A stretch of 46,265 nt of DNA from Betaproteobacteria bacterium (GTDB taxonomy: Bacteria; Pseudomonadota; Gammaproteobacteria; Burkholderiales; Casimicrobiaceae). The position numbers and the translations under genes were made by a program. The notes under the pieces were generated by a model. It worked only from the letters and a program-made list of their open reading frames with translations. It ran no database searches and was not told the origin of the DNA. The DNA lies in NCBI GenBank assembly GCA_005881895.1, contig VBCG01000060.1, positions 1 through 46,265 on the forward strand. The letters run 5' to 3'. Numbering within the stretch: the stretch's first letter is position 1; each line of letters begins with the position of its first letter. Below are positions 36,503 to 46,011 of this stretch, in pieces.

Positions 36503-36709
36503 GCTGATCTCCTCGAAGAGAATGACCCTTCGCTGCATCGCAAGATGCATGCCGACAAGAGATCGCCGCGCGCACGGGACCGACGAAGCGAAATCACCGC
36601 GCGACTCTCGCGATCCGCTGTAAGGTCTGCAATGCGACAACGCAATTTATGCAACCAATCGAGCGGAACGCGCATGCGTCGTCCGTTTGCCGTGGCAGCG
36701 TGACGAGCG

Positions 36710-37612
36710 ATGGCCACCGCGCCCGCGATTCGGCCGTCGTCGCTCATCGTCGCGCATCCATTGCGGTTCATCGGCGTGGTCTTGAGCCGCTTTCGTGCGA
36801 ATCAGGGACTGTTGCTGGCGGGCGCGGTCGCGTACTACACGCTGCTGTCGCTGATCCCGCTGTTGATCCTGCTGCTGATCGCGTTGTCGCGCGTGATCGA
36901 TGAGGCCCGCGTGCTGGCGACGCTCGCGGAGTATCTCGAGTTCGTCATCCCCGGCCAGTCGGCCGCGATCGTCGACGAGCTGCTCGGCTTTCTCGCCCAC
37001 CGCGAGACGATCGGCGCCGTGCTGCTGATATCGATGCTCCTGTTCAGCGCGCTGGCGTTCACCGTGCTCGAGAATGCGATGTCGGTGATTTTCTTTCACC
37101 GCGTGTCGATCCGGCGCCGGCGCTTCATCGTCTCCGCGCTGCTGCCCTATGTCTTTATCGTTTTCCTCGGGGTCGGCCTGCTCGTCGTGACCGTTGTATC
37201 GGGCAAGCTGGCTGCGCTGGCGACACACAACGTCACGTTGTTCGGCGTTCCCCGTTCACTGGAGGATCTGTCGAGCTATTTGCTGTACCTGGTGGGCGTC
37301 GCCGGCGAAATTCTTGTGCTGACGGCGATCTACGTCGTGATGCCGGTCGGCCGGCTGTCCATTCGCCATGCATTGATTGGTGGCGTGACCGCCGGACTGT
37401 TGTGGGAAATCACCCGGCATGCGCTGGTCTGGTATTACGGCACGATCTCACAAATTCAGGTCGTGTACGGGTCACTGACCACCGCCATTGCCGTCCTGTT
37501 GAGCGTCGAAATCGCGGCGATCGTGCTGCTGTTGGGCGCACAGGTCATCGCCGAATACGAGCGACTCGGCCGTGAACCTCGCGACTGGGGAACGCCGGCG
37601 CTTCGCACTTAA
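36710..37612 (+). CDS. YihY/BrkB-family membrane protein
   Basis: A 300-residue integral membrane protein with about six hydrophobic segments: LLLAGAVAYYTLLSLIPLLILLLIAL, ETIGAVLLISMLLFSALAFTVL, LLPYVFIVFLGVGLLVVTVV, LLYLVGVAGEILVLTAIYVVMP and two more. Family motifs include AVAYYTLLSLIPL near the N-terminus and the VYGSLTTAIAVLLSVEIAAIVLLLGA block. The family was once called ribonuclease BN by error, and its members are now regarded as transporters or envelope proteins of unknown function. The ribosome site is weak (GACGAG). Upstream, 36503-36709 shows nothing clear. Confidence 0.9.
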   Translation: MATAPAIRPSSLIVAHPLRFIGVVLSRFRANQGLLLAGAVAYYTLLSLIPLLILLLIALSRVIDEARVLATLAEYLEFVIPGQSAAIVDELLGFLAHRETIGAVLLISMLLFSALAFTVLENAMSVIFFHRVSIRRRRFIVSALLPYVFIVFLGVGLLVVTVVSGKLAALATHNVTLFGVPRSLEDLSSYLLYLVGVAGEILVLTAIYVVMPVGRLSIRHALIGGVTAGLLWEITRHALVWYYGTISQIQVVYGSLTTAIAVLLSVEIAAIVLLLGAQVIAEYERLGREPRDWGTPALRT

Positions 37613-41208: not shown

Positions 41209-42717
41209 ATGCGAATTCTGATGCGGTTCGCCGTCGGCGTCACGTTGATTTTTCTTGCGATAGCAACGCATGCGCAAACGCTGCGTATCGGTCTCGCCGA
41301 AGATCCCGATGTGCTCGATCCGACCCTGGCGCGAAGCTTCGTCGGCCGCATCGTTTTCGCCGCGTTGTGCGACAAGCTGTTCGATATCGACGAAAAGCTG
41401 ACCATCGTCCCGCAGCTCGCGACTGCCTACGAGTGGGCGTCCGACAACAAGGCGCTGACGATCAAGCTCCGCCCCGGCGTGATGTTTCATGACGGCGAAA
41501 AGCTCGACGCCGCCGCGGTGAAATTCAGCCTCGAGCGCCACAAGACGATGGCCGGCAGCAATCGTCGCGGCGAGCTCGCGCCGGTCGCAACGGTTGACGT
41601 CGTCGATCCGATGACGGTGCGTCTCAATCTTTCCGCGCCGTTCTCGCCGTTGCTCGCGCAGCTCGCCGATCGCGCCGGCATGATCGTTTCACCGAAGGCC
41701 GCGCAAGCCGAAGGCGACAAGTTCGGCGCCAAGCCTGTCTGCGCGGGACCGTTCCGCTTTGTCGAGCGCATTGCGCAGGACCGCATCGTGCTCGAGCGTT
41801 ATCCGAATTACTGGAACAAGGGCGAGATCCATTTCGATCGCGTCGTGTTCTTGCCGATCCCGGATGCGACGGTGCGCCTCGCCAATCTCCGTTCGGGCCA
41901 ACTCGATTTCATCGAGCGGCTCGCCGCTTCCGATGTACCGCAACTCAAATCCGATGCGCGTTTCAAGATCGCGAAGATCACGGAGATCGGCTATCAGGGC
42001 GTCACGATCAACGTCGGCAAAAGCGAGCTTGCGCAGAAGACGGCACTCGGCCGCGATCCGCGCGTGCGCGAGGCGTTCGAGCTCGCGCTGGATCGCGACG
42101 GCATCGTCCAGGTGGCGATGGACGGCGAAGCCGACGTCGGCAATCAATGGGTCGCTCCGACCAACGCGTTTTACGCGAAGAACATGCCGATACCGAAACG
42201 CGACGTTGCGCGCGCGAAGGCATTGCTCAAGGAAGCAGGCGTGACGAATCCGGAAGTGACGCCGAAGCCGCCCACGACCGCGGATGCGCAGCGGATTGCG
42301 CAGGTCGTGCAAGCGATGGTGAAGGATGCGGGATTCGACGTGAAGATTCAGTCGACTGAATTCGCGACGTCGCTCGATCTCGCCGACAAAGGTCAGTTCG
42401 ACGCTTACGTCCTTGCGTGGAGCGGACGCGCCGATCCCGACGGCAACATCTTCAATTTCGACGCTTGCAAGCAGCCGCTCAATTACGCTGGCTATTGCAA
42501 GCCGGAAGTCGACGACCTGCTGAACAAATCCCGCGCGGCGCGCGACGTAGCCGAGCGCCGCAAGCTATTTGAGCAACTTGCGGCGATCGTCCTCAAGGAC
42601 CGGCCCATCGTATATCTCTATCACCGCCACTGGCTGTGGGCATATACCGCGAAGCTGTCGGGGCTGCGCACGATTCCCGATGGTCTCGTGCGGGTACAGG
42701 GGCTCCGCTTCAACTAA
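41209..42717 (+). CDS. ABC importer substrate-binding protein, family 5 (DppA-like)
   Basis: A 502-residue periplasmic binding protein with a signal peptide (MRILMRFAVGVTLIFLAIATHAQ). Family phrases are LRIGLAEDPDVLDPTLARSFVG, LATAYEWASDNKALTIKLRPGVMFHDGEKLDA, CAGPFRFVERIAQDRIVLERYPNYW and DPRVREAFELALDRDGIVQVAM. The length is normal for DppA/OppA/GsiB proteins. GGGGGA before the ATG supports the start. It should feed the two permeases at 43901-46011, but a reverse-oriented gene lies between. The ligand is probably a short peptide or glutathione-like compound, without evidence for which. Confidence 0.92.
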   Translation: MRILMRFAVGVTLIFLAIATHAQTLRIGLAEDPDVLDPTLARSFVGRIVFAALCDKLFDIDEKLTIVPQLATAYEWASDNKALTIKLRPGVMFHDGEKLDAAAVKFSLERHKTMAGSNRRGELAPVATVDVVDPMTVRLNLSAPFSPLLAQLADRAGMIVSPKAAQAEGDKFGAKPVCAGPFRFVERIAQDRIVLERYPNYWNKGEIHFDRVVFLPIPDATVRLANLRSGQLDFIERLAASDVPQLKSDARFKIAKITEIGYQGVTINVGKSELAQKTALGRDPRVREAFELALDRDGIVQVAMDGEADVGNQWVAPTNAFYAKNMPIPKRDVARAKALLKEAGVTNPEVTPKPPTTADAQRIAQVVQAMVKDAGFDVKIQSTEFATSLDLADKGQFDAYVLAWSGRADPDGNIFNFDACKQPLNYAGYCKPEVDDLLNKSRAARDVAERRKLFEQLAAIVLKDRPIVYLYHRHWLWAYTAKLSGLRTIPDGLVRVQGLRFN

Positions 42718-43670
42718 CGGGCAGAATACCGCTCGGGCACGTAATACCCCGATGCCACGCGGTCTTGCGTCCACGGCAGATGCGCATAGTCGCCCGGGCC
42801 GAACGTTTGGCAATGACCGGCGAAGTCCGCGTCGCTGCAGAAGAACCAGCTGCCACCCTCGATCCGCATCGATCCCGCACCGTTTTCGAACCATTGATAC
42901 GTCAGACGGTGGATCACGGGCCGATCGACAACGATCGAACGTCCGCGGAAATTCGGATACTGGTAGAACACCACGCGCGCTGGCCCAGGGGGCGTGGTAG
43001 CCACATTCGGCGACGGTTGCGCAAGCGGCGGTGCTTGCTGCACAAGAGGGGTAGTCGACGGTCGATCGATGATGTCCGCCGATGCGACGCGCCCGTTCAG
43101 CACGCCCAGCGACTCGTAGCGGCCGGGAAGAAGCTCGACGCACGAATTTTGCGTGCTGTCACACAAGCGCCATACGCCGTCGTACACGATGGCCGAATCC
43201 ACGCTGTCGCCGATTTGCACGCGATCGAGGTTGCGTACGCTCCCCGTCAGCGTGACCGAACGACCGCCAAACCCCGCATGCTCGTAAAGAGCGATTCGGG
43301 GCGATGTGCCCGCGCCCACCGCCGGCGACCCGCCTACCGTCTGCGTCACTTCGCGCAGCGATGCCACGCGGTCGCTCGCGCTCGTTCCAAAACTGCTGTA
43401 TTCGCCCGGCTGCAGTTGCACGCAATGTCCCTCAAAGTAGGGCTTATCGCAGACTTCCCAAACGCCGGCGCGCACGACAAGCGACGACGCGGTATCGTTG
43501 TAACCGATCCGTTCGAGATTCGGCGACGGTCCGCGCACCGTCATCGCGTTGCCCTTGAAGTCGCGGTCGGCGAAAACCGTGACCTCGCCGGCAAACGCGC
43601 TTCGGGCTACGCTCGAGACGATGACAATCGCGCCGGTTGCGAACAACAAACCCATTTGCTTCGCATTCAT
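42714..43670 (-). CDS. exported triple beta/gamma-crystallin-like protein
   Basis: A 318-residue protein with a signal peptide (MNAKQMGLLFATGAIVIVSSVARSAFA). Three crystallin-type domains follow. Domain 1: EVTVFADRDFKGNAMTV ... WEVCDKPYFEGHCVQL. Domain 2: RIALYEHAGFGGRSVTL ... WRLCDSTQNSCVEL. Domain 3: RVVFYQYPNFRGRSIVV ... WFFCSDADFAGHCQTF. Each has one Cys pair and a trailing G-x-Y segment (PGEYSSFG, PGRYESLG, PGDYAHLP). A Pro/Gln-rich linker separates domains 2 and 3. Some bacterial members bind Ca2+. GGAGGT precedes the ATG at 43670. Its stop codon overlaps the stop of the convergent binding-protein gene by three bases. The gene splits the ABC importer cluster. Confidence 0.88.
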   Translation of the reverse strand: MNAKQMGLLFATGAIVIVSSVARSAFAGEVTVFADRDFKGNAMTVRGPSPNLERIGYNDTASSLVVRAGVWEVCDKPYFEGHCVQLQPGEYSSFGTSASDRVASLREVTQTVGGSPAVGAGTSPRIALYEHAGFGGRSVTLTGSVRNLDRVQIGDSVDSAIVYDGVWRLCDSTQNSCVELLPGRYESLGVLNGRVASADIIDRPSTTPLVQQAPPLAQPSPNVATTPPGPARVVFYQYPNFRGRSIVVDRPVIHRLTYQWFENGAGSMRIEGGSWFFCSDADFAGHCQTFGPGDYAHLPWTQDRVASGYYVPERYSAR

Positions 43671-43813
43671 CGTGGAAACCTCCGGAACACACCGGTCCGA
43701 TACGGCCGGCAAGCCTTTGGACCATGGACTTCTCGCAACGTTTTGACGCGCGTGTCTCATTTCCACCGATGCGTGCGTCAGACAAAGTCGGATAATCGAT
43801 GACTACAAACTGT

Positions 43814-43850
43814 CCCCTCACCCCAACCCTCTCCCGCGAGCGGGAGAGAG
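43814..43850. repeat. CTCTCCCG/CGGGAGAG dispersed intergenic repeat
   Basis: CCCCTCACCCCAACCCTCTC leads into the perfect 8-bp hairpin CTCTCCCG-CGAG-CGGGAGAG (43829-43848). This sequence type, CCCTCACCCCAACCCTCTCC followed by a G+C hairpin, is a very common intergenic repeat in proteobacteria. It stands 50 bases before the first permease gene. Confidence 0.7.
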
Positions 43851-43900
43851 AGCGCGACGGATAGTGTCGAGCGGCCGAGGGGCACCTCCAGCGCCATTCG

Positions 43901-44851
43901 ATGTTCACCTTTCTCGTCCGCAGAATCGCGACGATCATTCCGACGCTGATCTTCGTGTCGGTATTGATATTCGCGCTGCAACAGCTGTTGCCGGGCGATC
44001 CGGCCGTGATCCTCGCGGGCGAAGAGCGCGACCCTAACGTCGTCGCGTATCTGCACGAGAAGCTGCACCTGGACGAGCCGTTTCCCGTTCGCTATTACTA
44101 CTGGATCAGCGGAGTGCTGCACGGCGATCTCGGCGAATCGCTGCGCCTGCAACGGCCCGTTCTCGCGCTGATTCTCGAGAAGCTGCCGGTCACGATCGAG
44201 CTCGCCTCGTTTGCGATCGTGATTGCGCTGCTGATTGGAATTCCCGCCGGAATCATTTCCGCGGTCAAGCGCAACACCGCTTGGGACTACGGCGCCAACA
44301 TGATCGCCCTGTGGGGATTGTCCACGCCGAATTTCTGGCTTGGCATCATGCTGATCCTGCTGTTTTCGGTGACGCTCGGCTGGTTGCCGGCGTCGGGTTT
44401 CGTCAGTCCGTTCGAGAACTGGCGCGCGAATGTCGCGTCGCTCGTCATGCCGGCGTTCGTGCTCGGCAACGCGATCGCCGCGGTGCTGATGCGCCATACG
44501 CGAAGCGCGATGCTGCAAGTGCTGTCGTCCGACTATGTCCGCACGGCGCGCGCCAAGGGTTTGCCCGAGACCGGCGTCGTGCTGAAGCACGCGCTTCGCA
44601 ACGCGCTGATCCCGGTCATTACGCTCGGCGCACTGGAGCTCGGCACGCTGCTCTCGGGCGCGGTGCTCACCGAGCAGGTGTTCACGATTCCAGGATTCGG
44701 CAAGCTGATCGTCGACGCCGTGTTCAATCGCGACTATGCCGTCGTGCAGGGCGTCGTCCTCTTCACCGCCACCGCGTACATCGTGCTGAACCTCGTCGCT
44801 GACGTCGCGTACGTGTTGGTCAATCCACGGATTCGCGTGGGGGACCTCTGA
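43901..44851 (+). CDS. ABC importer permease, DppB/OppB-like
   Basis: A 316-residue inner-membrane permease with six transmembrane helices. The N-terminus FTFLVRRIATIIPTLIFVSVLIFAL and LLPGDPAVILAGEE are typical of DppB. Later come IPAGIISAVKRNTAWDY and LSTPNFWLGIMLILLFS. The EAA loop that contacts the ATPase is RTARAKGLPETGVVLKHALRNALIPV. The C-terminus VLVNPRIRVGDL is the normal end of the family. Its last codons and stop codon form the left arm of a 25-bp inverted repeat whose right arm contains the ribosome site of the second permease. Confidence 0.94.
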   Translation: MFTFLVRRIATIIPTLIFVSVLIFALQQLLPGDPAVILAGEERDPNVVAYLHEKLHLDEPFPVRYYYWISGVLHGDLGESLRLQRPVLALILEKLPVTIELASFAIVIALLIGIPAGIISAVKRNTAWDYGANMIALWGLSTPNFWLGIMLILLFSVTLGWLPASGFVSPFENWRANVASLVMPAFVLGNAIAAVLMRHTRSAMLQVLSSDYVRTARAKGLPETGVVLKHALRNALIPVITLGALELGTLLSGAVLTEQVFTIPGFGKLIVDAVFNRDYAVVQGVVLFTATAYIVLNLVADVAYVLVNPRIRVGDL

Positions 44852-45125
44852 GTGGGTCCCGCGCGGATTGCGCTGCTACGCAAAATGCGGATGACTGCGA
44901 GACGGACGACGAAGGTGATAGTTCATCCTATTACCGAGGAGGGCCGCGGAGTAGGCGCCGCATTTTGCCGCAGCCCGATTGGACGGCCACGTTTCGGGCG
45001 GTCTCCTTTGTCGCAGCTTCGCTTGTGTACGCTCAGTACACGTCGCTTGCTGCTTCAGTTAGCAAATGAGGTATCCCATCCCGAAACGCGGCCGGCGCAA
45101 CCGCGCGGGACCCATTCAGAGGTCC
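44842..45125 (+). repeat. 284-bp inverted-repeat element between the two permease genes
   Basis: The left arm, 44842-44866, is GGACCTCTGAGTGGGTCCCG then CGCGG. The right arm at 45101-45125 is its reverse complement except for one position, which becomes a G-U pair in RNA. After a one-base bulge the stem continues with TTGCGC/GCGCAA. Inside is a second dyad, GCAAAATGCGG (44880-44890) with CCGCATTTTGC (44958-44968). There is also a small hairpin GTGTAC-GCTCA-GTACAC (45025-45041). The arms include the first permease's stop codon and the GAGGTCC ribosome site of the second. An open frame from the GTG at 44852 spans the element but looks non-coding. Confidence 0.85.
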
Positions 45126-45129
45126 TTTG

Positions 45130-46011
45130 ATGGCGACCATCGCCGACACGCTGCCGCAAGTCGTTTCGCCTGCCGCTCAACCCCGCACCCATCCGTTGCG
45201 CCGGTTGCTGCGACGGCGCTTTGCAGCGTTCGGGCTCGCCGTCATCGCTCTCTTCGTCGCGCTCGCACTCTTTGCGCCGCTGGTGGCGCCGTACGATCCG
45301 CTTGCAACATCCTGGGGCGCGATTCGCAAGCCGCCAAGCCTGGAACACTGGTTCGGCACCGACGAGATCGGCCGCGACGTGGCATCGCGCGTGATATTCG
45401 GCGCGCGCGCGTCACTGCTCGCCGGTGTCGTCTCGGTTCTTATCTCGCTGTCGATCGGCATCCCGATTGGATTACTCGCCGGCTACGCGGGTGGCAAGGT
45501 CGACATGCTGATTTCGCGGCTGACCGACGCTGTGCTCGCGTGTCCTTTTCTCATCCTCGCGATTGCGCTCGCGGCGTTCCTCGAACCGAGTCTTACCAAC
45601 GCGATGATCGCGATCGGCATTTCCGCGACGCCGGTCTTCGTGCGGCTCACCCGCGGGCAGACGCTCGCGATCAAAGCGGAAGATTTCATCCTCGCGGCGC
45701 GGGCGATCGGCAACCCACCGTGGCGGATTGCGCTGCGCCATGTGTTGCCGAACGTCGTCCCGGCGCTGATCGTCCAGGCGACGCTCGCCATCGCGGCGGC
45801 GGTGATCGCCGAAGCAAGCCTGTCGTTTCTTGGACTCGGCCAACAACCGCCGGCGCCGAGCTGGGGCAGCATGCTCAATACGGCGAAGAACTATATTGAC
45901 AACGCGCCATGGATGGCGATCTGGCCGGGGCTTTCGATATTCCTGTTGGTACTTTCGTTCAACCTCGTTGGCGACGGCCTGCGCGACGCGCTTGATCCCC
46001 GAAGCGTCTGA
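45130..46011 (+). CDS. ABC importer permease, DppC/OppC-like
   Basis: A 293-residue inner-membrane permease. An N-terminal cytoplasmic segment with Arg (RTHPLRRLLRRRFAAFGLAV) precedes the OppC-type helix and the periplasmic LFAPLVAPYDPLATSW. The phrase EHWFGTDEIGRDVASRVIFGARASL is the family signature. The EAA loop is AARAIGNPPWRIALRHVLPN. The end, LVGDGLRDALDPRS, is typical. GAGGTCC five bases before the ATG is the ribosome site, and it lies within the right arm of the inverted repeat upstream. No ATPase genes follow in the window, since 46012-46237 is non-coding. Confidence 0.94.
   Translation: MATIADTLPQVVSPAAQPRTHPLRRLLRRRFAAFGLAVIALFVALALFAPLVAPYDPLATSWGAIRKPPSLEHWFGTDEIGRDVASRVIFGARASLLAGVVSVLISLSIGIPIGLLAGYAGGKVDMLISRLTDAVLACPFLILAIALAAFLEPSLTNAMIAIGISATPVFVRLTRGQTLAIKAEDFILAARAIGNPPWRIALRHVLPNVVPALIVQATLAIAAAVIAEASLSFLGLGQQPPAPSWGSMLNTAKNYIDNAPWMAIWPGLSIFLLVLSFNLVGDGLRDALDPRSV

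Follow-up and report, generated by a model that had tools for sequence, protein, structure and literature searches.

ERIC and NEMIS repeats are palindromic and intergenic and are able to alter mRNA stability, and NEMIS is tied to RNase III. Among MITEs, MITEPsy1 of Pseudomonas syringae pv. phaseolicola is related to IS5, non-coding and 100 nt long, and was trapped moving in vivo according to the portions of its description cited here (PMC3189936). QMITE2 of Coxiella and Chunjie of Geobacter are short and TIR-bounded; the cited portions of the source present MITE transcripts as stable stem-loops and report that Chunjie copies differ in size (PMC10969869).

The stretch of DNA that we analysed, hereafter the window, is 46,265 nucleotides of contig VBCG01000060.1 from a member of the Casimicrobiaceae. 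It encodes a DppB-like ABC permease at 43901-44851 on the plus strand (open reading frame; Pfam PF00528 and PF19300) and a DppC-like ABC permease at 45130-46011 on the same strand (orthologs; PF00528 and PF12911). An earlier note on this DNA had proposed that a long inverted repeat spans the junction of the two genes, and a repeat search bore this out. The 25-nt arms at 44842-44866 and 45101-45125 are complementary at 24 positions (96%) across a 234-nt spacer, and the sole exception is a G against a T, which is a G-U pair in RNA. As had been described, the final dppB codons and the stop codon TGA (44849-44851) lie in the left arm, the right arm contains AGAGG just 5' of the dppC ATG at 45130, 278 nt separate stop from start, and a nested dyad is present (44984-44998/45080-45094, 93% complementary). 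By our estimate the 24/25 match is far beyond chance expectation for 551 bases, and the sibling copies have it too. The RNA fold of 44830-45140 has a computed energy of -172.7 kcal/mol versus -121.6 +/- 5.9 kcal/mol in 100 shuffles (z = -8.7). This assembly is fragmented and the arms are GC-rich, which would favor a chance dyad or an assembly artefact, but the z-score and the occurrence of the same interior in copies from other assemblies, including those of Variovorax, Pseudorhodoferax and Thiobacillus, make either explanation next to impossible.

That dppB and dppC normally adjoin, as the earlier note had stated, holds within the genus. A DppC search gave matches in 19 of 22 genus genomes, and the best 15 loci were used; one of these is the window and one has no dppB. 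At all 13 remaining junctions the gap is about -5 to 29 bp, with the dppC starts set by alignment, and the element is absent, compared with a gap of 278 bp in the window. The closest of them, in genome G020 (91% and 87% identity), reads CAC-TGA-TGG, a stop/start overlap. Its DppB ortholog ends in NPRIRVH-stop versus NPRIRVGDL-stop in the window, where GDL and the TGA come from the end of the element. Upstream of dppB, positions 43815-43853 hold the sequence CCCTCACCCCAACCCTCTCCCGCGAGCGGGAGAGAG, presumably a common GC-rich repeat hairpin. On the opposite strand, between a dpp substrate-binding-like gene and dppB, lies a 350-aa frame (42714-43766, minus strand) that may be crystallin-like, judging by its sequence.

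The earlier note had suggested a blastn search in which many copies with the same ends would support a mobile element, and multiple, co-terminal copies were what we found. The window's own genome contains two full relatives (contigs C214, 87% identity, and C130, 82%); further, partial relatives lie on C95, C63 and C41, and GGRRCCTCTGAA occurs there 11 times versus once for the reversed control. Element matches at E<=1e-5 were obtained in 7 of 100 genomes, the window's own included. Distant full-length copies (69-73% identity) have their termini within two positions of 44844 and 45123; most of their ends read GGAACCTCTGAAYAAGTC or something similar, frequently followed by the four bases CTAA, TTAG, TTAA or CTAG. 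Identical 4-bp flanks, all of the form YTAR, bound 22 of 53 TIR-bounded copies, where the 53 include two alternative boundaries (L141 and L171) and the 22 include one copy (L120) with no blast link to the family. The combined TIR-plus-YTAR pattern was present in 8 of 64 family genomes (one mismatch allowed) and 3 of 399 order genomes (none allowed), and its reversed control gave no match in either set. The strict pattern had no match in the window's own genome, and plasmid blastn with the element as query also gave none. Two further kinds of sequence were seen in these searches. Perfect 20-bp palindromes AGGGCGTGTTAACACGCCCT lie at L275 (G022:C1:922350), L283 (G022:C1:1539039) and L280 (G041:C15:77649), with an imperfect one of the same type at L279 (G022:C1:1351020); these amount to two TIRs fused without an interior, and may be either what was left when extruded hairpins were deleted or a motif of another kind. 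On contig C42 of the window's own genome, a 319-bp copy (L091, 1501-1819) is predicted to form one near-perfect hairpin of great length (-279 kcal/mol), which looks as though one of its arms had overwritten the opposite side.

The sibling copies define the layout at the junction. Distant siblings are co-terminal at 44844-45123; their ends are GGAACC/GGTTCC, and addition of the GG/CC gives a whole element of 284 bp at 44842-45125. Its left TIR (44842-44866, plus strand) reads GGACCTCTGA, is mostly GGAACCTCTGA in siblings, and holds the dppB stop; its right TIR (45101-45125, plus strand) ends in TCAGAGGTCC and supplies the Shine-Dalgarno-like AGAGG (45118-45122, plus strand), 7 nt before the ATG. 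The interior begins with arm 1 (44878-44967, minus strand), which matches our covariance model R1 in antisense orientation (cmsearch, 35.1 bits, E 3.9e-6). A central mini-hairpin follows at 44974-44982, recognized from sequence and folds; it reads CCCGATTGG, and CCCGAAGGG in many siblings. Arm 2 (44990-45091, plus strand) matches R1 in the opposite orientation to arm 1 (32.0 bits, E 2.2e-5) and has 12 bases inserted in the window copy. The element encodes no transposase: 284 bp is too short, and the frame that lies mostly inside it is 92 aa (44852-45130). As read from its sequence, the window copy is a decayed two-armed MITE: no target duplication is recognizable (the flanks are TGGG and TTTG), and its ends (GGACCTCTGAGTGGGTC) each lack one base that the siblings have by consensus, with more divergence farther inward.

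We looked for a transposase that could act on these ends. Contig 51 of genome G032 starts at a left end GGAACCTCTGAATAA, encodes a 341-aa transposase that matches NCBIfam IS5_4 (NF033581; 344.8 bits, E 3.7e-103), and has a right end followed by CTAA. The outer ~15 bp are common to this IS and the MITE. A tblastn search of plasmids with the G032 transposase matched at least 5000 records and gave, as the best match among those listed, an annotated IS5-family element on the Achromobacter plasmid pA81 (66% identity). Its left end TTAAGGAACCTCTGAACAAGTCC agrees with the MITE consensus, being identical over GGAACCTCTGAACAAGTCC, its right end is GGAAGGTCTGAACAAGGC, and TTAA stands at both ends; the right ends of the G032 and pA81 IS both read GGAAGGTCTG. 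Related ends and YTAR were found in four of five plasmid matches examined (pA81, Pseudomonas 4810-S13, Methylibium and Variovorax paradoxus), and an end search of the fifth, ISPssy of P. avellanae, gave no convincing ends. In the 260 contigs of the window's own genome we saw no IS5_4-type transposase with the element's TIR, and neither of the two PF01609 matches there could be tied to this TIR. A TIR-like start near a PF01609 match on C141 was rejected as a candidate, as it is part of a sequence shared with C83 and has no definable IS boundary; the common stretch (L093 1501 on C83, L096 102 on C141) starts with GGAACCTCTGAACAAGCC, and the DDE_Tnp_1 frame of C141 lies beyond the point of divergence. 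Around single TIR matches in relatives (L151-L170), a partner TIR at ~1.1 kb was seen at L154, among whose listed frames no transposase was recognized by eye. For the AGGGCSTGTT ends of G022 and G041, no IS-sized pair with a recognizable transposase was found, a 1018-bp pairing (L300) being set aside.

Two readings of the gap had been offered, a MITE-like insertion or a structured regulatory RNA, and the first of these stands. We are highly confident that the 284-bp segment is a non-autonomous MITE that inserted at the dppB/dppC junction, as directly indicated by its multiple copies, common and defined ends, YTAR duplications of siblings, empty junctions in relatives, and insertion sequences whose ends match or resemble its own. 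An IS5-family transposase (NCBIfam transpos_IS5_4 group) presumably moved it in trans, and the event would date to an ancestor of the present genome, which is Casimicrobiaceae-like. Against this explanation stand the window copy itself, with its diverged ends and no recognizable target duplication, the strict pattern and the matching transposase not seen in its own genome, and, for the IS partners, a similarity of the G032 IS that covers about the outer 15 bp and right ends that in both IS read GGAAGGTCTG. With the left TIR providing the dppB stop and the right TIR the dppC Shine-Dalgarno sequence, the operon could probably survive the loss of its stop/start overlap. The locus shows how a tightly overlapping operon can take an insertion with both genes keeping a stop and a ribosome site.

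Stop codons were also prominent at the insertion sites of other copies. Among 51 sites with flanks of at least 330 bp, a set that includes the double-bounded L171 and L202 and one site with other ends (L274), the stop codon of a frame of at least 100 codons lay inside the 4-bp target at 20 and near the end at 26. The background was 33 of 265 YTAR sites of the same loci, counting L171 and L202 twice (Fisher p = 1.9e-5). Genes in this test were frames of at least 100 codons that passed a GC3 filter rather than gene-caller output, and a second test reduced the denominator to 47 with all 20 positives kept. At L051 and L213 the target holds the stop of a frame from each side; in the window, the dppB stop is at +8 within the TIR by the boundaries of this test. 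Because YTAR contains TAA/TAG, target choice together with purging of gene-breaking insertions may suffice for the excess, which may reflect survivorship.

We then considered the consequences for dppC translation. In the free transcript the Shine-Dalgarno sequence is predicted to be fully paired (unpaired probability 0.0), and opening 45115-45135 costs 29.7 kcal/mol. With the left arm kept unpaired, as a ribosome at the dppB stop would keep it, the cost fell to 12.3-15.2 kcal/mol and the unpaired probability rose to 0.51-0.52; the uninterrupted G020 junction, folded in a shorter context, has a similar cost of 12.6 kcal/mol. These values are what would be expected of a structured regulatory RNA selected at this locus, in which the dppC ribosome site is masked by the arms until ribosomes completing dppB translation release it. 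Several observations speak against that explanation and make it very unlikely. All 13 related junctions are without the element, the same arms recur at unrelated loci as transposon ends, Rfam gave no match at E<=1 (window 44700-45250 and 15 other loci), and the dppC start codon is still mostly paired with the left arm blocked (unpaired probability 0.10-0.31). Conservation at the same gene in relatives, by which a cis-regulatory RNA would be recognized, was not found, and this part of the earlier proposal lacks support in the sense of a conserved device: the relatives have neither the gap nor the element. For the inserted MITE, the modeled energies make control of dppC thermodynamically plausible without its being conserved, and a coupling of dppB to dppC across the insertion is possible as a non-conserved by-product of TIR symmetry. 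The probable local effect would be a long double-stranded RNA between the cistrons, a likely RNase III target, with dppC initiation in part dependent on ribosomes reaching the dppB stop.

The interior was investigated in folds of 14 single copies. Eleven share an outer stem, arm 1, the mini-hairpin and arm 2; L091, L171 (whose bounds are too wide) and L176 deviate from this plan. Arm 1 when reversed resembles arm 2, such that the interior amounts to the same ~90-nt arm present twice, in inverted orientation, with the mini-hairpin in between. Each arm has a long stem, mismatched loops and a terminal hairpin, and either strand can be folded into a cloverleaf. A weak third R1 match in the window, at 36674-36774 on the plus strand (17.5 bits, E 0.065), is probably due to chance.

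For covariation, we used 113 distinct arms from 143 matches (97 sources given). Arm pairing held in 91.1% of cells versus 67.0% when shuffled, with double changes in 26 of 29 pairs and 721 cells versus 236.5; the A2 alignment was made to the R1 model and leans toward it, and the 88.5% paired in A1 is biased since the R1 seed arms were picked by motif and folding. When the partner was slid by 1-3 columns, pairing fell to 36-42%. Compensatory changes, which the earlier note would have taken as support for a regulatory RNA if seen in one conserved copy, are present, but between many copies and not at one conserved locus. Stem A has 933 Watson-Crick pairs in 988 cells, with 20 G-U and 14 A-C, and stem B has 798 in 889, with 8 G-U and 21 A-C. 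Over all arm pairs there are 104 G-U and 91 A-C, of which one column pair each contributes 62 and 40.

Helices kept as RNA should favor G-U over A-C. The absence of a clear G-U excess in the arm helices is the reason why we prefer upkeep at the DNA level. If the interior were a non-coding RNA gene that travels with the MITE and is kept for its RNA, this would account for the strong covariation and for the U-G conserved at one arm position (62 of 112 rows). We nevertheless regard such a gene as unlikely in view of the G-U and A-C counts, the presence of one arm in each orientation on each strand, and the lack of an Rfam match. A promoter and terminator scan revealed no pattern, a result of little power as the shuffles gave 0.0 and 0.6.

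Of 12 opposed loop positions tried, five with ten letters or fewer were left out. Positions 19/117, 20/116, 28/96 and 29/95 are mostly unpaired, with Watson-Crick pairs in 11, 36, 6 and 12 of 111 rows (and G-U in 28 more at 29/95), whereas the inner-loop positions 32/90 and 33/89 are pairable in about half of 109 rows; 33/90 is paired in 7 of 109. These positions bear on a further explanation, in which the paired changes are only template-switch repair of hairpins in replication, with no selection on shape. Template switching is able to maintain stems, as described in the cited part of the source (PMC8794818). Few G-U intermediates, many transversion-type swaps, the pairable positions 32/90 and 33/89, and the TIR-only palindromes of G022 and G041, which look like deletion scars of extruded hairpins, all fit it. 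Simple hairpin correction would not predict persistence of the four opposed positions that stay unpaired in most rows, however, and elements that differ in their TIRs and base composition retain the layout; we therefore consider repair as the sole cause rather doubtful, while still a serious contender. With the G-U counts compared and some mismatches seen to persist, a selected DNA shape, a selected RNA and template-switch upkeep become separable questions.

Maintenance of the arms at the DNA level remains our preferred reading, and the same interior extends well beyond elements with the window's ends. An exact motif scan of a species-genome collection identified 27 stretches, 26 in Betaproteobacteria or taxa within it and one (L204) recorded only as Proteobacteria. 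Several of the 11 stretches that were read have other ends, for example AGGGCCTGTTCRC (Variovorax, L204), AGGGCCTGTTAAC in Pseudorhodoferax, GAGCCTATTTGAG in Thiobacillus, and AGAGCCCGTAACA in L194 and L200. R1 matches were present in 26 of 64 family genomes (E<=0.001) and, at E<=1e-5, in 63 of 300 order genomes and 12 of 398 phylum genomes; R1 copy counts are lower bounds, with at most 68, 14 and 10 candidates scored per genome for family, order and phylum. Seven of the 12 phylum genomes lie outside the order, two of which (G572 and G697) have matches near 1e-5. Nine loci, five of them outside the order, were predicted to have an outer stem and two large branches, with the mini-hairpin in all but L272. 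L269, from another class, has a window-type end; L236, L241 and L243 are one-arm forms. The arm motif was found in none of the viral contigs.

MITEs are usually taken to be deletion leftovers that are known by their ends. Because ends and stems vary while an architecture of mismatched arms is retained from genus to genus and even outside the order, the interior here may have its own function. What these data describe is a widespread, little-described group of elements that keeps a cloverleaf-like interior fold as sequence and ends change. As a tentative proposal, to which we give somewhat less than an even chance, the group would be phylum-wide and non-autonomous, united by the conserved shape of its single-stranded DNA (a mini-hairpin flanked by two inverted arms with mismatches) rather than by ends or sequence. 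Its core would have repeatedly swapped ends and so recruited different transposases, its fold would have a DNA job, such as exposing the ends while the lagging strand is synthesized, attracting a host factor or escaping nucleases that attack palindromes, and it would settle preferentially on gene stop codons.

Compared with known systems, ERIC and NEMIS differ from the window element in their ends and targets. The IS5-family IS of pA81 and G032:C51 (NF033581) have the same or similar termini and YTAR flanks as the element, and differ from it in being ~1.2 kb long with a transposase. Among the matches listed in open-licence PubMed Central literature, no cloverleaf or two-armed MITE was described, and the element's ends were found only in MITEPsy1. 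The MITEPsy1 TIR (GGAAGGTCTGAAAAAGCC / GTATCCTCTGAAAAAGCC) is close to GGAACCTCTGAACAAGTC of the window family and its duplication is a 4-nt CTAG or YTAA, but at 100 nt it is too short for two ~90-nt arms, and the cited portions of its description mention no interior fold (PMC3189936). QMITE2 and Chunjie are each presented in one host in the cited portions of the source (PMC10969869), whereas the interior layout of the window element is common to elements with different TIRs across the phylum. The element is thus ordinary in kind, a MITE, and unusual in its anatomy and breadth.
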